A stretch of DNA of 22,036 bases from a virus (IMGVR_UViG_3300025070_000268:1-22036); one strand, 5' to 3'. Counted from the stretch's first letter, positions 7,013 to 20,335 are shown. Numbers and translations are program-made. The notes: generated from the letters alone by a model not told the origin.

Positions 7013-7738
7013 ATGATACACAACTGTCATAAGATGGCCAAGGCGGCTGGATTAGCCTACTTAGACCAAGAAGAAGCATATTCTGAATATCAAAAATTAG
7101 GATATGATAATCATATATTCATGGAAGACGATGGCGCACAATGCCATGCAGTCTGGAATGATGAAGAGTTTGTCTTGTGCTTTAGAGGTACAGAACCAGG
7201 CGAATTCTCAGATATCAAAGCTGACTTGAATGCTCTACCTGACAAAGCCCAAGAAGGTGGTTGGGTTCACAACGGGTTTCAAGTAGAAATAGATAAACTA
7301 TGGGATGAACTACAGTTCGTTCTAAAGTATGCAGACGATAAAACATTTTTAATTTGTGGTCATTCTCTAGGTGGAGCAATGGCAACTATCGCTGCTAGTA
7401 GACTTAACGAACTTGTAGATGCACTCTACACTTATGGTTCACCAAGAGTTGGTACACGTAAGTTTTGTAAGTCTCTTAATAATATTCCACATTATCGTCA
7501 TGTAAATAACAATGATCTTGTTACAAGTGTACCACCCGCATTTCTCGGGTATAGACATACTTGTAAGCCAAGATATATCAATTACTTTGGTCAAATAAGA
7601 AACATGTCAAAGTGGCAAAGAGTAAAAGATAAATTTCGTGGACGTTGGAGAGCCTTGAAAAAGGGTATGCCATTTGATGGTGCATATGATCACGGCATGA
7701 ACCATTATATCAAATACACAGAAAATAAGGAGAATTAA
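7013..7738 (+). CDS. Class 3 lipase (alpha/beta-hydrolase)
   Basis: 241 residues. The nucleophile elbow CGHSLGGAMA puts the catalytic Ser at residue 118; NNNDLVTSVPP gives the Asp at 168; and DHGMNHY gives the His (227 or 231). The oxyanion-side motif FRGTEPGEF and GSPRVGTRKF also fit Lipase_3 enzymes, which hydrolyse acylglycerols or phospholipids. There is no signal peptide, so the enzyme acts in the cytoplasm unless released, for example on the inner membrane during lysis or as part of a virion. AAGGAAAGG precedes the ATG. Its place among membrane proteins suggests a lipid target in the envelope. Confidence 0.9.
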   Translation: MIHNCHKMAKAAGLAYLDQEEAYSEYQKLGYDNHIFMEDDGAQCHAVWNDEEFVLCFRGTEPGEFSDIKADLNALPDKAQEGGWVHNGFQVEIDKLWDELQFVLKYADDKTFLICGHSLGGAMATIAASRLNELVDALYTYGSPRVGTRKFCKSLNNIPHYRHVNNNDLVTSVPPAFLGYRHTCKPRYINYFGQIRNMSKWQRVKDKFRGRWRALKKGMPFDGAYDHGMNHYIKYTENKEN

Positions 7739-8576: not shown

Positions 8577-9017
8577 ATGTCTAACGATGATTTTTTAAAA
8601 GACGCAGACTTGGAGGAGACTAAACCAATGGCGGAAAAGAAAGTTAATGAAACACCTAAAACAATGGAAGCTGATTCCATTTACGCATATCTAGATACAG
8701 ATGGCGATGGTGTTATTACAGACGAAGAAATGTCCCGAGCAAAAGAGATTGCAGAATGGGAACATAAGAAAAAAATGCGTGAGAATGAAGACGCTAAAGA
8801 AGACCAAATTCGTGCGATGGCATGGTTTGCTCTTTGGGGTATGCTACTATATCCTGTTCTTATTCTTGCTACATCACTCTTTGGTGTAGAAGATGCGGCA
8901 CAACTAATTGGTGATATTGCGCCTACATATTTTGTAGCGATTGCTGGCTTAGTAGCAGCGTTCTTTGGTGCTAATGCTTATAGCAAAAAAGCATCTAAAA
9001 AAGATGATGACTACTAG
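8577..9017 (+). CDS. EF-hand membrane protein
   Basis: 146 residues. An acidic N-terminus leads to one canonical EF-hand loop, DTDGDGVITDEE, with Asp at loop positions 1, 3 and 5, Gly at 6, Ile at 8 and Glu at 12, at about residues 40-51. A charged helix follows, then two membrane segments (about 79-101 and 115-135) and a lysine-rich tail. A single calcium-binding loop next to the membrane suggests calcium sensing or calcium-stabilised assembly, relevant in sea water; this is inference. Last gene of the plus-strand cassette, directly before a terminator. Confidence 0.8.
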   Translation: MSNDDFLKDADLEETKPMAEKKVNETPKTMEADSIYAYLDTDGDGVITDEEMSRAKEIAEWEHKKKMRENEDAKEDQIRAMAWFALWGMLLYPVLILATSLFGVEDAAQLIGDIAPTYFVAIAGLVAAFFGANAYSKKASKKDDDY

Positions 9018-10159: not shown

Positions 10160-10378
10160 TTACTCCTCTTTCGTTTTTAATGCGTACTCTAGGACATCGT
10201 TAATTGTCACAAGACCCATCATATCTTCATCTTCAACTTCAATACCAAACTCATCTTCGAGGTGAAATGCTAATTCAAGCAAATCAAGACTATCCAGATC
10301 CAGGTCTTCAATCCTAGTATCCGCCGAAACGTCTTGTCCAAATTTTTCTTTAAAGATTTTTTGTACTTTTTCAATCAT
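10160..10378 (-). CDS. Acyl carrier protein
   Basis: 72 residues from the ATG at 10378 (MIEKVQKIFKEKFGQ), chosen over an earlier in-frame ATG because GGGTGAT lies before it and the length then fits ACP. The motif LDLDSLDLLELAFHLEDEFG contains the DSL serine that receives 4'-phosphopantetheine, and the helices on both sides are acidic, as usual. ACPs carry growing acyl chains for host lipid synthesis. A phage copy might redirect acyl groups to membrane remodelling or lipoprotein acylation, or take part in another acyl transfer; this is inference. Downstream of the dual promoter at 10517-10547. Confidence 0.93.
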   Translation of the reverse strand: MIEKVQKIFKEKFGQDVSADTRIEDLDLDSLDLLELAFHLEDEFGIEVEDEDMMGLVTINDVLEYALKTKEE

Positions 10379-10404
10379 ATAATTATCACCCAAAAACTGT
10401 TTTA

Positions 10405-10488
10405 TTAAAACCATAAGTGGAGATTTGGTCCACTTATATCATCACACGGGTCGTCAACAAAATGGTCAAACCATTTGTCTAAGTCCAT
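10405..10488 (-). CDS. 27-codon small open reading frame before ACP
   Basis: ATG at 10488 behind AAAGGGA reads MDLDKWFDHFVDDPCDDIS and ends GPNLHLWF. Strongly acidic and aromatic. It is the first frame after the dual promoter and stops 27 bases before the ACP start, so it is either a small protein or a leader peptide. Its 3' part forms the hairpin at 10413-10437, which ribosomes on this frame would have to melt. Confidence 0.45.
   Translation of the reverse strand: MDLDKWFDHFVDDPCDDISGPNLHLWF
10413..10437 (-). promoter_or_regulatory. Hairpin just upstream of the ACP start
   Basis: Perfect 9-bp inverted repeat, ATAAGTGGA and TCCACTTAT, around a 7-base loop. It lies 35-59 bases before the ACP ATG, inside the 27-codon frame. 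There is no long U run, so it is less likely a terminator than an RNA control or processing element. Confidence 0.5.
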
Positions 10489-10583: not shown

Positions 10584-11126
10584 TTGGAATATTATATCAA
10601 AAAGTTTAGTATCGTCTTATCACTTGTGCTACTATCTGCATGTGAACCAAGCATCAATCACATTCAATCCCAATCTCCTCAGTTCCCAGACCATCTAAGA
10701 GTGGCTGACAGTTTAGTTGATAAACATGAACGAACAGATAGAGAAGAGTTAAGAGAGTTTATTGGCATTGACCCAGTACTTTATGAGTGGTGCGCCGCAT
10801 TTGTTAATGCTGTCTTACGCACAAATGGTATTAGTGGTAGTGAAAGTGTTAGTAATAATCCACTAATGGCAAGAAGCTTTTTAGATTACGGAACTCCTGT
10901 AGATGAGCCAAAGATAGGAGATATCGTAATCTTTAGTAGAGGTGAACCATGGCAAGGCCACGTAGCGTTCTACATGGCCACAAGGGTCATAGGGGGTGAA
11001 GAAGTTGTTATTGTTCTTGGTGGTAATCAGAATGATATCGTAAGCTACGATTCATACCCATCTTCTAGGGTTGTAGATATACGTAGGCTGAATACCCAAC
11101 CACTAACAACCAAATACACCCCTTAA
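10584..11126 (+). CDS. Lipoprotein with CHAP/NlpC-P60-type peptidase domain
   Basis: 180 residues from a TTG at 10584; no strong ribosome binding site is visible, so the start is uncertain. The N-terminus (YYIKKFSIVLSLVLLSAC) is a lipoprotein signal with lipobox LSAC, so Cys20 would be lipidated. The domain carries EWCAAFVNAVLRTNG with the catalytic-type Cys, GDIVIFSRG, GHVAFYMA with the His, and VLGGNQND with an Asn, as in the TIGR02594-like cysteine peptidases/amidases of phages and bacteria. Likely to cut peptidoglycan from a membrane-anchored position, for lysis or to open the wall. Alone on its strand with its own late promoter. Confidence 0.85.
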   Translation: MEYYIKKFSIVLSLVLLSACEPSINHIQSQSPQFPDHLRVADSLVDKHERTDREELREFIGIDPVLYEWCAAFVNAVLRTNGISGSESVSNNPLMARSFLDYGTPVDEPKIGDIVIFSRGEPWQGHVAFYMATRVIGGEEVVIVLGGNQNDIVSYDSYPSSRVVDIRRLNTQPLTTKYTP

Positions 11127-11615: not shown

Positions 11616-11623
11616 TATTTATC
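11616..11623 (-). promoter_or_regulatory. Late-type promoter of dps (GATAAATA)
   Basis: GATAAATA on the minus strand, 18 bases upstream of the Dps ATG and overlapping the stop codon of the 32-codon gene before it. Close to the NATAAATA late pattern seen elsewhere in the window. The distance leaves only a very short leader. Confidence 0.5.
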
Positions 11624-11720
11624 ATAGTCCTAAGTTCCACATCCATATTGGTATTACAATAAAGTGTAATAGCACACAGACAAATAGCATTAGATAGACT
11701 GTGCGCCATTGTGGGTTCAT
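11622..11720 (-). CDS. 32-residue membrane protein
   Basis: The ATG at 11720 overlaps the upstream stop as ATGA. The product begins MNPQWRTVYLMLFVCVLLH and continues as a hydrophobic helix to IPIWMWNLGL, a single membrane span. It is the last gene of the coupled chain that includes the pseudoazurin and DoxX-like genes. The coupling supports its being translated. Function unknown. Confidence 0.62.
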   Translation of the reverse strand: MNPQWRTVYLMLFVCVLLHFIVIPIWMWNLGL

Positions 11721-11917
11721 TTACTATGTCTTTCATCTAATATTTTTTGCATTGTACGACTTGCAGTGTCGGTAAAGAAGCGTGGTGCAAAAGCATGAAT
11801 GACTAATGCAGGAACTAACAACTGTAGTGTACCTGCTATCTTCAATGCTTTTACTGCATGTTCCAATCCATTTTCACCAACTTCTTCTAAATGTGCTTTG
11901 CACTCTTTACTTAACAT
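11717..11917 (-). CDS. Small membrane protein, unknown function
   Basis: 66 residues: an amphipathic start (SKECKAHLEEVGENGLEHAV), one hydrophobic segment at about 26-44 (IAGTLQLLVPALVIHAFAP), then a basic helix ending LDERHSK. Its ATG overlaps the stop of the DoxX-like gene (TAATG) and its stop overlaps the next small gene (ATGA). I have seen similar short proteins in proteobacteria and phages without a known function. Confidence 0.72.
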   Translation of the reverse strand: MLSKECKAHLEEVGENGLEHAVKALKIAGTLQLLVPALVIHAFAPRFFTDTASRTMQKILDERHSK

Positions 11918-12318
11918 TACGTTCTATTTCCCCTTAGAGCAAAATACATGCCCCCTACCCAAAGTAGGACATGAAAGTTATCATACAATATAACATCCAT
12001 AAAGCTTTCAGGTTCACCAATCCAGATAACACCAGTCATGATACTACAGATTGTGATACCACTAAAGCGTGTAATCAAATCACCAAATTCTTTAAACCAA
12101 TTGGCAAGTATTCCGCCAACAAGTAATCCTACACCTGAACCAAGTTCACCATAAACAACAAAGACCCAAACAATCAATGGGAGTGCAAACGACTCTGCTG
12201 TACCTGCATCAACGGGCCATTTATCAAGGCCCTGTTGAAGGAATATGATGGCCAATGGAATACGAAGTAACCAATGGCTAAAACAAAATTCTGGTATTTT
12301 ATCAACTAAACTTTTCAT
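11917..12318 (-). CDS. DoxX-like four-helix membrane protein
   Basis: 133 residues with four hydrophobic segments. The start, HWLLRIPLAIIFLQQGLDKWP, resembles the first helix of DoxX/DoxD-type proteins (R-x-x-x-x-x-I/F-x-x-x-G-x-x-K), followed by FVVYGELGSGVGLLVGG in the second and third helices. DoxX-family proteins are linked to quinone or thiol redox chemistry and, in some bacteria, to oxidative-stress complexes, but many are uncharacterised. The ATG overlaps the pseudoazurin stop (TAATG), which makes joint expression very likely. Confidence 0.75.
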   Translation of the reverse strand: MKSLVDKIPEFCFSHWLLRIPLAIIFLQQGLDKWPVDAGTAESFALPLIVWVFVVYGELGSGVGLLVGGILANWFKEFGDLITRFSGITICSIMTGVIWIGEPESFMDVILYDNFHVLLWVGGMYFALRGNRT

Positions 12319-12734
12319 TACAGATCAGCCAATAATGCCTTTAGTTTTTTCTTTGACTTGCCTTTTACTTTGGCTTTTGAAATATCGTTGTCTCCGTCAC
12401 CAACTACGACAATAGCAATCATGCCCATTGTTTTGTGTGGTGAACACTGATATAGATATACACCTGGCGTATCAAATGTAATCGCAACTTCTTTATTGAG
12501 TTTTGATTTCTTTGGTGCTTTCCAACCATCTGGTCCAGCAATAAATTCTACATTGTGACCTTTTGATGTTGGTACCCACGTAATTGTATCGCCAACGTCA
12601 ATACGAGCAATGTCTTCGCTGTATACCATCTTGGCACCATCGTCACGTTTATTCAACATTTCAATAGTCATATCTTCAGCGTATGCGGTTGTTGCGAAAA
12701 TAGCCATTAGACTAGCGGTAATTAAATTCTTCAT
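12318..12734 (-). CDS. Pseudoazurin (type 1 copper protein)
   Basis: 138 residues. A signal peptide ends in TTAYA before EDMTIEMLNK. The cupredoxin fold shows DTITWVPTSKGHNVEF with the first His ligand and the loop YQCSPHKTMGM with Cys, His and Met, so all four type 1 copper ligands are present. After the barrel comes a lysine-rich helical tail, as in pseudoazurins. These periplasmic proteins carry single electrons between cytochromes and terminal reductases or oxidases, for instance to nitrite or nitrous oxide reductase. Preceded by AGGAAAA and coupled by TAATG to the DoxX-like gene. A phage copy is a candidate auxiliary metabolic gene. Confidence 0.94.
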   Translation of the reverse strand: MKNLITASLMAIFATTAYAEDMTIEMLNKRDDGAKMVYSEDIARIDVGDTITWVPTSKGHNVEFIAGPDGWKAPKKSKLNKEVAITFDTPGVYLYQCSPHKTMGMIAIVVVGDGDNDISKAKVKGKSKKKLKALLADL

Positions 12735-12750
12735 TTTTATTTTCCTATCT

Positions 12751-12957
12751 TTATTTCTTTACATTAAGACCGGACGGATTGTATTGTTCGCCATTATAGG
12801 CAGGATAGGTGTCGTCCTCTACCCCAAAGTTACATGATGCTACAACTAATAACGTTGCAATTGAAGCATATGTAGTTCGTTTAGTCCAAAGCATAAAGCC
12901 TTCGAATGTCTTCTCAGCTTCTTTTTGAGCGGCTGCACGTACTTCATCATCAGTCAT
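12751..12957 (-). CDS. Membrane protein resembling aa3 oxidase subunit IV
   Basis: 68 residues. After an acidic, alanine-rich start comes EKTFEGFMLWTKRTTYASIA leading into a single membrane helix (about 28-44), then a soluble tail rich in Tyr and Asn. The TF-x-GF motif just before one helix resembles the short subunit IV of alphaproteobacterial aa3 cytochrome c oxidase, which usually lacks such a tail. The match is by eye and could be chance. It is sixteen bases upstream of the pseudoazurin gene, and its ATG overlaps the preceding stop (ATGA). Confidence 0.6.
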   Translation of the reverse strand: MTDDEVRAAAQKEAEKTFEGFMLWTKRTTYASIATLLVVASCNFGVEDDTYPAYNGEQYNPSGLNVKK

Positions 12958-13133
12958 AGTGATCTTGTTCCATAATATGCACGATAAACTTCAGCGAGTT
13001 CTTGTTGGTCATTTGACTCCTGAACAACATAGTCTTCTTTATCAATTTGTGTTCCATCAGCAATTGCAATAGCATCTTCTTTGCGTGATGCTATAGCAAT
13101 AATTTCACCGTCTTTTCTTCTAACAATATGCAT
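12954..13133 (-). CDS. Hypothetical small protein
   Basis: 59 residues from the ATG at 13133, which overlaps the stop of the 56-codon gene (TAATG). It begins MHIVRRKDGEIIAIASRKED and is soluble, with a beta hairpin followed by a charged helix. A TTG at 13151 is a less likely start. Function unknown; in the coupled chain feeding the oxidase-like gene. Confidence 0.68.
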   Translation of the reverse strand: MHIVRRKDGEIIAIASRKEDAIAIADGTQIDKEDYVVQESNDQQELAEVYRAYYGTRSL

Positions 13134-13303
13134 TAGTTCAGACCAAAACAAGGTAAGATATTGACATTACAATACCGACCATATTCTTCAAGGCCTACCA
13201 TTGCCATTAGCATCAATACTGGTACTACAGCAATCATAAAGACGATAATCAAAAACATAAGGCCTAAACCTTTTGTAGTGCAATAGTTTGTTTGTTCACT
13301 CAT
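13133..13303 (-). CDS. 56-residue membrane protein
   Basis: ATG at 13303 with AGGA eight bases upstream; its TAA overlaps the next start (TAATG). A polar start (MSEQTNYCTTKG) is followed by one long hydrophobic helix rich in methionine (about 13-37) and a tail with two cysteines (RYCNVNILPCFG). With the first Cys there are three cysteines, which could form disulfides or bind metal outside the membrane. Function unknown. Confidence 0.68.
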   Translation of the reverse strand: MSEQTNYCTTKGLGLMFLIIVFMIAVVPVLMLMAMVGLEEYGRYCNVNILPCFGLN

Positions 13304-13304
13304 T

Positions 13305-13445
13305 TTATAATCCTAATATTCCAAACAGGTTAAACCAACCCATAGATGTTCCGATGATAACTGGTAGTGCTACCATACTAAAAGCGATAACTAAAAATGC
13401 TAGTATCGCACCGTTATTGTGATACGGTTCATTTGGATCACTCAT
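13305..13445 (-). CDS. 46-residue membrane protein
   Basis: ATG at 13445 with GGAGAG before it. Reads MSDPNEPYHNNGAILAFLVI and on through one or two short hydrophobic stretches to GWFNLFGILGL. The next gene starts one base after its stop codon. It resembles a minor membrane subunit, but no family is recognised. Confidence 0.66.
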   Translation of the reverse strand: MSDPNEPYHNNGAILAFLVIAFSMVALPVIIGTSMGWFNLFGILGL

Positions 13446-13446
13446 A

Positions 13447-13692
13447 CTATCTCTCCACTATTGGCATTATGCTTTGAGAGTCGTGATAGTCGCCTGACTT
13501 ATAATAATCACGGGTTGCAGATTCTTTAATCATAACACCCTTTCTCACACGATATGTATTTATCTCTCTGCGAATAACACCTTCAACATCACTCTCAAAT
13601 GCATTTTTAAAAGGACCATCATCTTCACGTTCTTGCGCTTTAAGAAAGTCGCCTGCACTTGTGAACTTTAAATCCTGCATATCATTATTCAT
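13447..13692 (-). CDS. Hypothetical soluble protein
   Basis: 81 residues from the ATG at 13692, preceded by GAGGTGG; this start lies within the 3' end of the upstream gene. It reads MNNDMQDLKFTSAGDFLKA, then a charged middle (GVIRREINTYRVRKGVMIKE) and an end rich in Asp, Tyr and Ser. No membrane segment. Function unknown. A GATAAATA at 13557-13564 inside it might be an internal late promoter for the small membrane genes downstream. Confidence 0.65.
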   Translation of the reverse strand: MNNDMQDLKFTSAGDFLKAQEREDDGPFKNAFESDVEGVIRREINTYRVRKGVMIKESATRDYYKSGDYHDSQSIMPIVER

Positions 13693-14116
13693 GTTCGCCA
13701 CCTCGTCCACGACCATTGTATGGACCAAAAACATTTGGCTTACGCTTTGCCGTTTCGAATGTTGCTACTGTGATTGCAACTGCGGCTAATAGTAGTGCGT
13801 GTAACACCATACTAAAAATACCTGCCCACATGCTACCCACAATAATAGCAAATACAATACACCACATCCATGCTAATACTTGCATAATCATATGTCGTGT
13901 ACTAAAGTCTGGAATTGCACTTAATGGATTTTGTTCGTGATCCATCACTACATTCCAACAATTATATACCCATTCTCTCATAGATATTACCTTTCTAAAA
14001 GTTACTTTTAAAGGATAGTGTGCATCAACATCATCACGATATTCGATTGCATCATTAACGTCATGAAAGTTTTCAGACACTTTATAATTCTTAAACCATG
14101 CTGTCACTTTATACAT
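13685..14116 (-). CDS. Two-helix membrane protein
   Basis: 143 residues. A soluble N-terminal domain (about 1-70, with YKVSENFHDVNDAIEYRDDV) precedes two hydrophobic helices at about 77-95 and 97-119, then a basic, glycine-rich tail (GPYNGRGRGGEHE). The tail and the N-terminal domain would both face the cytoplasm. AAGGATAGG precedes the ATG. I do not recognise the family. It heads the run of membrane genes that reaches to 11622. Confidence 0.72.
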   Translation of the reverse strand: MYKVTAWFKNYKVSENFHDVNDAIEYRDDVDAHYPLKVTFRKVISMREWVYNCWNVVMDHEQNPLSAIPDFSTRHMIMQVLAWMWCIVFAIIVGSMWAGIFSMVLHALLLAAVAITVATFETAKRKPNVFGPYNGRGRGGEHE

Positions 14117-17695: not shown

Positions 17696-18126
17696 AATTG
17701 CTCTACCTCTATTCCGCACTTTTGTAAAAAATTGATACCTGTATCTAGGCGGTACTTACTACCATAATAGACTTTAGATATGCCTGCACTATATATAAGT
17801 TTAGCACACTCTACACATGGCGCATGAGTAACATACATTTCTGCGCCTTTACCATTCTCATGCGAGCCTGCTAGTTTTGCGATACAATTCGCTTCTGCAT
17901 GAATTACTTCTGGTCTTGTAACCTTGTACGGTTCATCATTTTCATTAAACCAAATCTCTTCACACTCATTACTCCAGCCAGAGGGCATACCATTATAACC
18001 AATAGAAATGATACGATTGTCTTTGACTGCAATTGCTCCGACTTTAAGTCTCTCTGCTGTTGACAGAGACCCGAAGGTCTCTGCCGTTTTCATATAAGCT
18101 ACGTCCCACTTAGAAGGTGATTTCAC
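17692..18126 (-). CDS. cd: dCMP deaminase
   Basis: Converts dCMP to dUMP, the substrate of thymidylate synthase. The zinc site is complete: VIHAEANCIAKLAG supplies His and the catalytic Glu, and HAPCVECAKLIYSAG supplies the two cysteines. KVGAIAVKDNRIISIGYNGMPSG is the usual strand and loop before them. The likely start is GTG at 18126 (KSPSKWDVAYMKTAETFG), overlapping the reductase stop; a longer frame from 18156 would lie entirely in the reductase gene, and ATG at 18093 is an alternative. The symbol follows T4 usage. Confidence 0.92.
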   Translation of the reverse strand: MKSPSKWDVAYMKTAETFGSLSTAERLKVGAIAVKDNRIISIGYNGMPSGWSNECEEIWFNENDEPYKVTRPEVIHAEANCIAKLAGSHENGKGAEMYVTHAPCVECAKLIYSAGISKVYYGSKYRLDTGINFLQKCGIEVEQL

Positions 18127-20335
18127 AAGCACCACCAACGCAAGCCGCTGAACCAATAGTGTCTACATCTGTAAACTTCTTAGTTTCTAATTCAGATGTA
18201 AAGTCAATTGGCTTGATGTTCTGTTGAATCTTAGTCCACTTATGTAGCAAGAACACGTCTTTCAAGCAATACTCTGCTTCTTTCATATCACCCATGAAGT
18301 AGTTGTCTGAGAACTTTTTGAAACGACGAATCCACTCTGCACGTAGATCAGATACTTCTCCACGATACTCTTTATCCATTTGTGCAACAGAAGAAGCTTC
18401 CCATAGATCATTGAACCCCTTACGAGTATCTACAATAAGACCTGCGGCAAACAATGATGCTTTACCATACTTGTTAACAATCTCTGCTTCTGTAAGAACT
18501 TCTGTCATTGGTGCTTGATTAAAGTCTTTATCACCTGATCCACCTAAGAAAGAGATACCTGCAAATGCACCACGGTTTGCGTATACATAATCTTCTACTT
18601 CTTTCCACTGGTGTGGCATAACAGTCACAGTGTTTGAAACGTTGTGACGTAGGTTTGGATGGGCGCATCTCTCAACATTAGTACCAGCTTCAACCCAGTT
18701 GTTTTGAACTAGCTTCACTTTTTCCAATAGATTTGTACCATATAGTTCTTGACGATACAATGAATCTTCAGGTGAGATAATTGGGAACGCAACAACATAA
18801 TCAGTTTTACCTGCTGACCATACAGACTCTTCAACCATATATGGATTTGTTTCAGCAATCAATTGAGCAACTTCACTTTCTTTGTTCAATTGAACGTGAC
18901 GTAGATAACGAGGTGAATGCTCACTATGAATACCGGATGCTGTCTGCAACAACACTGAAGCATTGCCTGATGGCTTCACACAAGTTGTTCTAGCTGCAGC
19001 GTTGATACCAATCAATTCAGCAACACTTGCGTTAACACTTTTAACAATCTCTGCGCCAGTTGTTTGAACTTCTGCATCTAATAGAACATCTGGGTTATTC
19101 ATCCAACCAGTAACAGATACTCCTAGTAGTGCTTCACGCTCAAAGATACGCTTTGATGCTTCGCTAATGTAGTTGAAGTTTGTGTAGCCTGCTTGTAGAG
19201 TACCTAGAATAGCTGCCGCACGACATGCTTTAAAGAACTCTTCTTTAGTTGTACACTTACCACCATTGATTTCTGTTAGATTACAACCCTGCCAGCCGGA
19301 CTCACCATCGATCTGAGGATACATGCCAATCTCAACACAAGGGTTAGTTGTGAAGTCTTTATCTTCTACAAAGTAGAAACCAGGCTCACCAAACTCTTTG
19401 ATTGAAGCCATGAAGTTTGAGAATTGCTCTTTAGTAATCTCATCACGTACAATCACTGCTGAGTTGTTTGAACGACCACGCTGTGGATTATCAATAAACC
19501 AGTTACCTGTCTTTGCTTTCATCATTTCTTCATCATCTGGCGAGAACAAGCAAATGGTAGCTGAACGGCGCACACCGCCCGATAGAACGGCGTCAGCGGC
19601 GTGCATAGCGATATCATACACTTCGATAGACTTTAGTTTATTACGACCAGAAAGAACGATACCTTGTAGCATATACTCAATCTTATCTAGTGTACGACGA
19701 AGAGGCTCTGGACCAGGTGCTTTGAACCCACCAGAAATCATTGCACCCTTTGGACGAATGTTAGACAAGTCGAAGTATACTTTACGACCTTCAAACTCTG
19801 GATGCACACCGCCGCCAACAAAGTATGAAGACATTAGAACAGCAAGAGAGTCTGCCCATCCTTCAATACTATCTTCTACTACATAACCCTTTGCTTGCTT
19901 CTTACGTTCTTGAATAGGCGCAAGACGATCAATGTGATGGGTTTGTACAGAGAACCCTGCACCAGCACCACATAGTAGAATGTAAAACAACTCACCAAAG
20001 AAACCTTCACGATCAGCGTAAGTTGAAGTACAGTTATACATTTTCATTTGTTGCTTAAGTAATTGCTCACCACCAAATTGTAAAGCACGTTGAGCGCCTA
20101 GAGCATATTTAAGTTTATATGAAGCTTCTGCCTCATCGATTAGCAAAGCTAATTCAGGTGTCATTACTTTATCATAGTAATCACGATGCATATTCATAAC
20201 ACGTGATACAGCTTCTTCCCACGACTCATATCGCTCTTTAGTGTCATCCCAACGTGAATAGCCTTCGTAGAACTTAGTGTCTGACATAAGGGCTCTTGTG
20301 TTTCTGTCGGGATTATTGGAAATTACTTTTAACAT
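18110..20335 (-). CDS. nrdJ: Adenosylcobalamin-dependent ribonucleotide reductase (class II)
   Basis: 741 residues, close to the 739 of the monomeric Lactobacillus enzyme (RTPR). NPCVEIGMYP places the thiyl-radical Cys at 333 with its Glu at 335, GCNLTEINGG holds the partner Cys, and the C-terminus CVGGACEITF gives the redox pair Cys732/Cys737 with the same spacing as in RTPR. The enzyme reduces ribonucleotides using B12, so it needs no oxygen and no iron cofactor, but depends on cobalamin from the host. AAGAGGA precedes the ATG. The C-terminal pair would be reduced by thioredoxin or glutaredoxin. It lies 29 bases after thyA. Confidence 0.96.
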   Translation of the reverse strand: MLKVISNNPDRNTRALMSDTKFYEGYSRWDDTKERYESWEEAVSRVMNMHRDYYDKVMTPELALLIDEAEASYKLKYALGAQRALQFGGEQLLKQQMKMYNCTSTYADREGFFGELFYILLCGAGAGFSVQTHHIDRLAPIQERKKQAKGYVVEDSIEGWADSLAVLMSSYFVGGGVHPEFEGRKVYFDLSNIRPKGAMISGGFKAPGPEPLRRTLDKIEYMLQGIVLSGRNKLKSIEVYDIAMHAADAVLSGGVRRSATICLFSPDDEEMMKAKTGNWFIDNPQRGRSNNSAVIVRDEITKEQFSNFMASIKEFGEPGFYFVEDKDFTTNPCVEIGMYPQIDGESGWQGCNLTEINGGKCTTKEEFFKACRAAAILGTLQAGYTNFNYISEASKRIFEREALLGVSVTGWMNNPDVLLDAEVQTTGAEIVKSVNASVAELIGINAAARTTCVKPSGNASVLLQTASGIHSEHSPRYLRHVQLNKESEVAQLIAETNPYMVEESVWSAGKTDYVVAFPIISPEDSLYRQELYGTNLLEKVKLVQNNWVEAGTNVERCAHPNLRHNVSNTVTVMPHQWKEVEDYVYANRGAFAGISFLGGSGDKDFNQAPMTEVLTEAEIVNKYGKASLFAAGLIVDTRKGFNDLWEASSVAQMDKEYRGEVSDLRAEWIRRFKKFSDNYFMGDMKEAEYCLKDVFLLHKWTKIQQNIKPIDFTSELETKKFTDVDTIGSAACVGGACEITF

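Follow-up and report, generated by a model that had tools for sequence, protein, structure and literature searches.

Why would a virus encode a blue copper protein, a relative of a terminal oxidase subunit and a series of tiny membrane proteins in one run of genes? This question is raised by IMGVR_UViG_3300025070_000268:1-22036, a linear record of 22,036 bases from a virus collection and a fragment of a marine T4-like virus; this whole stretch is called the window below. Its minus strand encodes T4-like nucleotide metabolism (class II ribonucleotide reductase, thymidylate synthase, dCMP deaminase) and, at 11.6-14.1 kb, a tightly packed run comprising tm143, a protein with two transmembrane helices (2-TM), a protein of 95 amino acids (aa), one-helix proteins of 46 and 56 aa, a soluble protein of 59 aa, a COX4-like protein, a pseudoazurin, a DoxX protein, a DUF6356 protein, a 32 aa one-helix protein and then Dps. 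We consider it probable that the run is a mobile auxiliary cassette by which marine T4-like viruses of Alphaproteobacteria influence the final steps of aerobic respiration; Rhodobacterales and their relatives are the probable hosts.

The copper protein (138 aa, 12318..12734, minus strand like all genes of the run) matches PF00127 at 9.4e-16 in Pfam. It starts with a Sec-type signal peptide (MKNLITASLMAIFATTAYA, recognised by eye) and ends in a Lys-rich C-terminus. The copper ligands H60, C97, H100 and M105 have the right order and spacing and are invariant in the alignment with the solved pseudoazurin 1bqk, the top solved relative (9.6e-25). The 22 best solved relatives are pseudoazurins with E-values from 1e-24 to 1e-19, one of them deposited as 'blue copper protein'; matches to solved amicyanins and plastocyanins are far weaker. 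Among the protein family models, TIGR02375 is the best by far (6.1e-31; 106.6 bits, 3 bits short of the cut-off of 109.85). Identity as plastocyanin (PetE) was rejected, as TIGR02656 yields 35.3 bits with a cut-off of 87.85. The PF00127 match and the invariant ligands bear out the complete, four-ligand pseudoazurin of the initial annotation, and the viral protein can be expected to bind copper.

The COX4-like protein (68 aa, 12751..12957) is encoded 16 bp away from the pseudoazurin gene. Its assignment to aa3 oxidase subunit IV had been made dependent on a search with PF07835 (COX4_pro_2), and this search gave a match modestly above the cut-off (25.1 bits against 22, E = 2.1e-5). Among viral homologues, 18 of 20 match PF07835 at an E-value of 1 or less, and the cut-off is passed in just 9 of 28 viral records. 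For the most stringent test, a second profile was built from 34 Rhodobacteraceae subunit IV proteins only and searched against the six-frame translations of 149 viral loci (26,421 reading frames). All its 129 matches up to E = 10 are COX4-like frames; 129 of the 133 viral COX4-like frames were recovered and no other frame. When a viral profile was compared with 177,635 solved sequences, Paracoccus subunit IV came out on top and in register (TFxGF and helix), at a non-significant E-value of 0.42. Where a host-like protein from Rhodobacteraceae MED-G08 has EKTFAGFINWTTKT, the corresponding window stretch reads EKTFEGFMLWTKRT. Hence, the N-terminal half is truly homologous to aa3 oxidase subunit IV.

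The subunit-IV-like segment is composed of a TFEGF motif and one predicted helix (residues 3-43) that is modelled with a block pLDDT (predicted local distance difference test) of 89-96, whereas the tail is disordered. In 51 of 51 distinct viral sequences, the helix ends with V-[AVTI]-[SGA]-C-N, a perfect lipobox (VAS before C42 in the window). The tail beyond it comprises 21-35 residues, 27 in the window, contains a conserved YNGEQYxP and is presumably periplasmic. None of the 34 bacterial subunit IV members has a lipobox, as judged by eye; true subunit IV ends after the helix. The HxHG.MDI segment found at the N-terminus of most bacterial members is absent from all viral members examined, for which reason the COX4-like protein is considered a divergent relative and not subunit IV itself. 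A role of this lipobox protein as spanin was rejected, since no i-spanin-like partner was seen and the match to subunit IV is specific. A more daring reading, which we regard as rather doubtful, makes the protein an oxidase partner that would be both subunit IV mimic and lipoprotein precursor. Cleavage by signal peptidase II in front of the invariant Cys42 would yield two products: a subunit-IV-like peptide of 41 residues that stays in the oxidase, and a lipid-anchored periplasmic tail of 27 residues that would recruit the viral carrier, pseudoazurin or cytochrome c. By this route, the virus would take over electron input to the host terminal oxidase.

The third main member is a DoxX-family membrane protein (133 aa, 11917..12318). 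It scores 29 bits with PF07681 at a cut-off of 23.6, and its AlphaFold model, of low confidence (mean pLDDT 57), displays four long helical segments, in agreement with the DoxX-like four-helix protein proposed before. Eight viral members have a mean column identity of 78%.

Do these genes belong together? Relatives in viral contigs were searched with pseudoazurin, the COX4-like protein and DoxX, and the best 80 of 329, 352 and 188 confirmed stretches, respectively, were used, a choice that favours close relatives of the window. The virus records are metagenomic and mostly fragments. Pseudoazurin and COX4 loci were grouped into 45 non-redundant clusters, of which 40 contain pseudoazurin, 36 the COX4-like protein, 31 the 46/56 aa family, 27 DoxX and 26 tm143. 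The COX4-like gene accompanies pseudoazurin in 32 of 40 clusters, always on the same strand and at most 1.42 kb away, upstream or downstream and in several gene orders. Pseudoazurin-selected loci with at least 1.6 kb of flank on either side form 24 clusters; 19 have the COX4-like gene, 19 have DoxX and 22 have one or both. Hence, the expectation that pseudoazurin keeps these neighbours in other viruses held for linkage, while the gene order varies. Selection by DoxX yielded 36 clusters, 25 with pseudoazurin and 19 with the COX4-like gene, again in many orders. Neighbours outside the cassette differ and include major head protein (L002), tail sheath (L039), DNA polymerase (L050), primase (L053) and NrdB (L026). 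The cassette sits inside T4-like genomes of up to 177 kb (L050). These genome contexts were read by eye; grouping them by the distant genes they have in common put almost all T4-like contigs together and was uninformative. The members are under purifying selection, with median ratios of non-synonymous to synonymous substitution rates (dN/dS) of 0.11 for DoxX, 0.12 for tm143, 0.13 for pseudoazurin and 0.18 for the COX4-like protein. The cassette is real, with relatives far above chance, and it recurs in hundreds of sequences from uncultured marine viruses; those whose type could be checked were mostly T4-like. Among 50,697 records of isolated phages, no match to pseudoazurin, DoxX, the COX4-like protein or the viral cytochrome c described below was found.

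What is the cassette for? An exchange of carriers observed in other viruses supports periplasmic electron flow more strongly than anything within the window. In two large contigs of viruses (300 and 137 kb), DoxX is preceded not by pseudoazurin but by a gene for a class I cytochrome c that carries a signal peptide; relatives of this cytochrome are present in 51 viral contigs. The gene order in L389, L391 and L392 is DoxX, cytochrome c, tm143, 56 aa family and COX4-like, so that these loci read as the pseudoazurin-type cassette with its carrier exchanged. Pseudoazurin is encoded at 189 of 273 viral loci and cytochrome c at 53, and no locus encodes both; among 193 DoxX loci, the numbers are 155 and 25 (all counts include near-copies). 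No cupredoxin was found in 11 whole cytochrome-bearing records and no cytochrome c in 10 long pseudoazurin-bearing records. The viral cytochrome c is of mitochondrial type, with a further match to the CcoP-fused cytochrome cy of Rhodobacter. Pseudoazurin and cytochrome c have no common ancestry, and the established biochemistry they share is soluble electron transfer in the periplasm. Plastocyanin and cytochrome c6 form an analogous pair of carriers in cyanobacteria. Since unrelated carriers replace each other in one slot, electron transfer in the periplasm to the host oxidase is the best explanation. The initial annotation had described a phage-borne respiratory electron-flow module that keeps electrons moving during infection. 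The carrier swap supports the periplasmic electron flow; that it is kept up in infected cells is what we infer.

The same swap bears on two other explanations. Pseudoazurin might carry copper instead of electrons and act together with the COX4-like protein in assembly or repair of the oxidase. This would fit the copper binding typical of the family and the location of HemF about 1 kb from the COX4-like gene in one pseudoazurin-less group (L131, L134). However, a replacing cytochrome c cannot deliver copper, HemF occurs in 2 of 28 records only, and no known copper chaperone was recognised beside the cassette; we regard such a cofactor or assembly module as very unlikely. Alternatively, the genes might have nothing to do with respiration and form a chance cluster, in which small membrane proteins and a lipoprotein serve superinfection exclusion or lysis and a copper protein hitch-hikes. 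The many tiny one-helix proteins and the lipobox of the COX4-like protein, as found in spanins, could be explained in this way. It would leave unexplained why the homology to subunit IV is specific, why linkage persists while the order changes, and why unrelated carriers replace each other, which makes a chance cluster highly improbable.

For the respiratory function preferred here, the following mechanism is proposed. The virus would supply its own soluble periplasmic carrier, pseudoazurin in the window and class I cytochrome c in other viruses. This carrier would shuttle electrons from the bc1 complex or from periplasmic dehydrogenases to the CuA site of the host aa3-type oxidase. The viral subunit IV relative would reside in or beside the oxidase, with its tail in the periplasm where the carrier acts. 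DoxX and the other small membrane proteins might help at the membrane, possibly by affecting the quinone redox state or reactive oxygen. As a net effect, oxygen reduction and membrane potential would be sustained while host gene expression is shut down, presumably to the benefit of the virus. No COX1 was found in 28 viral records; with no catalytic oxidase subunit encoded there, any effect depends on the host enzyme, and a complete viral oxidase is not proposed.

This absence of COX1 also counts against the proposal, as do several other observations. The COX4-like protein departs from true subunit IV in that the N-terminal motif of the bacterial members is missing and a lipobox and a tail are added. 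In Paracoccus, loss of subunit IV by deletion reportedly changes little, and the role of this subunit is obscure even in bacteria. In six records with the COX4-like gene, neither cupredoxin nor cytochrome c was found, though these are fragments. The homologues of DoxX and tm143 point equally to oxidative stress. Finally, the best-known role of pseudoazurin in Paracoccus is to supply electrons under anaerobic conditions to the reductases of nitrite, NO and N2O, not to an oxidase (PMC12848317). From this classical job, one might suppose that the viral carrier feeds nitrogen-oxide reductases at low oxygen, all the more as nirK and norB can be present in viruses from oxygen-depleted waters (PMC8115048). 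In the viral loci, however, the neighbours are an oxidase subunit relative and DoxX, and no nitrogen-oxide reductase was recognised near the cassette. Bacterial pseudoazurin genes were found near Sox genes (L182) or an MsrPQ-type molybdopterin oxidoreductase (L202), i.e. their neighbours are other predicted periplasmic redox enzymes that belong to other pathways. Nitrogen-oxide reduction is the least probable of the functions considered here.

The main rival to a respiratory function is a function in redox stress. According to it, the cassette would shield the infected cell's membrane against reactive oxygen, and respiration would not be the target: the carrier would drain electrons or feed a peroxidase, and DoxX and the 2-TM protein would act in a stress response. 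The 2-TM protein tm143 (143 aa, 13685..14116, two predicted membrane helices, conserved C-terminal GGEHE) has homologues in 19 of 289 alphaproteobacterial genomes (L287-L302; L195:7776-8045). Several of these have as neighbours GTP cyclohydrolase I (L299, L302), fasciclin proteins (recognised by Pfam in L302 and by eye in L291 and L293) or, in L298, an extracytoplasmic function (ECF) sigma factor with a ChrR cupin protein. Such a neighbourhood is characteristic of the RpoE-ChrR singlet-oxygen regulon. In mycobacteria, proteins of the DoxX family have been linked to oxidative stress. Furthermore, Dps (PF00210, 6.9e-22) adjoins the cassette in the window. Yet, Dps is no conserved neighbour: it is present in only 1 of 81 pseudoazurin loci and was rejected as a member of the module. 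A relative of subunit IV and two soluble carriers that replace each other indicate the oxidase end of the chain. Reading of the neighbourhoods by eye, without a profile search, revealed no catalase, peroxidase or superoxide dismutase. Taken alone, a redox-stress module appears unlikely. Both functions are compatible, because a blocked oxidase end of the chain generates reactive oxygen.

From where did the genes come, and whom does the virus infect? The best bacterial matches are from marine Alphaproteobacteria, and the tree places the viral pseudoazurins with their counterparts from Rhodobacteraceae, with many forks poorly resolved and weakly supported. PF07835 was found in 59 of 61 Rhodobacteraceae genomes and in 1 of 14 control genomes, that of the alphaproteobacterium Caulobacter. 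Based on the grouping of pseudoazurin and the distribution of PF07835, a Rhodobacterales-like host is likely. The pseudoazurin of Rhodobacteraceae MED-G08 (L151, 635-1054) falls, with weak support, within the viral group; hence, transfer between virus and host may have occurred in both directions, including from virus to host. As far as can be read from sequences, the cassette genes appear to be host-derived, lie inside true viral genomes and are under selection, as expected of auxiliary metabolic genes. A 335-kb contig (L161) binned as Neomarinimicrobiota encodes a pseudoazurin, two copies of the 2-TM protein and an acyl-carrier-like protein; judging from its genes, it may be a large phage contig that was assigned to a bacterial genome by mistake.

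The remaining genes of the run are small. The DUF6356 protein (66 aa, 11717..11917; PF19883 at 3.9e-12) is present at only a few related loci (L080, L121-L124). The 32 aa one-helix protein (11622..11720) ends with IPIWMWNLGL and has homologues in 12 of 45 cassette clusters, every one with pseudoazurin (dN/dS 0.15). The soluble 59 aa protein (12954..13133), which overlaps the COX4-like start, has homologues in 17 of 45 clusters. Its frame could be extended to 65 aa by a TTG at 13151; the ATG at 13133 is most likely the start, as the homologues begin with MHIV. The one-helix proteins of 56 aa (13133..13303, SEQTNYCTTKGLG...) and 46 aa (13305..13445, SDPNEPYHNNGA...) share a profile family, for the latter by iterated search, and are possibly paralogues. 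All genes were found at the positions and on the strand given before, and profiles confirmed the families named. The predicted chain of stop-start overlaps could be measured: 4 bp between the 65 aa frame and the COX4-like gene and between the DUF6356 and 32 aa genes, 1 bp between pseudoazurin and DoxX and between DoxX and DUF6356. The interval 11622-13445 contains the correct genes but omits the 2-TM gene at 13685-14116, which is part of the conserved neighbourhood.

Several observations were made alongside. The isolated OM43 phage Melnitz (L303, MZ577097, 6025-6318) encodes a 2-TM protein of 82% identity next to a relative of an 88 aa protein of the window, both annotated as hypothetical; the rest of the cassette is absent from the 12.3-kb stretch of Melnitz phages examined. 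Melnitz is the only cultured phage among the 50,697 records that was found with any cassette member. DUF1127 and related small genes lie directly upstream of the cassette in 18 of 45 clusters (e.g. L337:2972-3548, L131:5257-5514, L026:4569-4993). In the pseudoazurin-less group, HemF (coproporphyrinogen III oxidase, PF01218, 9e-81) is located downstream of the COX4-like gene (L131:7130-7945, L134, G020, G021). In the window, an acyl carrier protein-like gene with a DSLDLLE motif, seen by eye, lies at 10160-10414 (minus strand). A plus-strand block of small secreted and membrane proteins includes a class 3 lipase (7013-7738; PF01764, 1e-19) and, at 8577-9017, a protein that has predicted membrane helices and a segment resembling an EF-hand. 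Just beyond Dps and on the opposite strand, a lipoprotein-like protein with a CHAP domain (10584-11126, plus strand; PF05257 at 3.8e-7, TIGR02594 above the cut-off) is possibly a lysis enzyme. The class II ribonucleotide reductase (18110-20335, minus strand) is 66% identical to that of Rhizobium phage RHph_I1_18, the next phage having 57%.

If the proposed function is true, the electron transport chain of heterotrophic hosts is a target of their viruses too, much as photosynthesis is for cyanophages. How phages control the energy metabolism of their hosts has been documented well for photosynthesis and hardly for oxygen respiration, on which most marine bacteria run. Predictions would follow for oxygen uptake in infected cells, for the copper and iron demand of viruses and for the role of the unexplained small subunit IV of the oxidase. 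No paper on a phage pseudoazurin or a phage subunit IV was found in open-access text, and, as far as papers could be searched, no respiratory cassette seems to have been described that combines interchangeable copper and haem carriers with a relative of subunit IV bearing a lipobox. As a kind, phage electron-transport genes are already known: cyanophage PetE (PHROG 515), haem genes and respiratory-chain enzymes, the latter reported from viromes (PMC4053976).

How does the cassette compare with these and other known systems? The viral pseudoazurin is like the bacterial ones (TIGR02375; 1bqk, 3tu6) in fold family, the four ligands, signal peptide and length, and it differs by a score slightly below the NCBIfam cut-off, the Lys-rich C-terminus and its being encoded by a virus. 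The viral cytochrome has the CxxCH haem site, the signal peptide and the Met in GTKM of class I cytochromes c (PF00034); it is, however, virus-encoded and occupies the pseudoazurin slot of the cassette in sister viruses. With aa3 oxidase subunit IV (PF07835; Paracoccus 1qle chain D), the COX4-like protein has in common the TFxGF motif, one long helix and a specific profile match, whereas HxHG.MDI is missing and an invariant Cys in a lipobox and a tail of 21-35 residues are added. Phage haem-biosynthesis genes, too, come from marine phages and may support respiration: the haem genes in a study on phage AlaS were proposed to keep cytochrome c oxidase working (PMC11480375), and a pelagimyophage encodes a coproporphyrinogen oxidase (PMC7029224). 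Those genes make cofactors, whereas the present cassette makes an electron carrier and a relative of an oxidase subunit. Cyanophage plastocyanin (PetE, PHROG 515) is likewise a soluble type I copper carrier in T4-like marine phages, and the window pseudoazurin matches phrog_515 at 1.3e-7. Here, in contrast, the carrier is a pseudoazurin of apparently alphaproteobacterial origin, and it is encoded beside relatives of an oxidase subunit and DoxX instead of photosystem genes.

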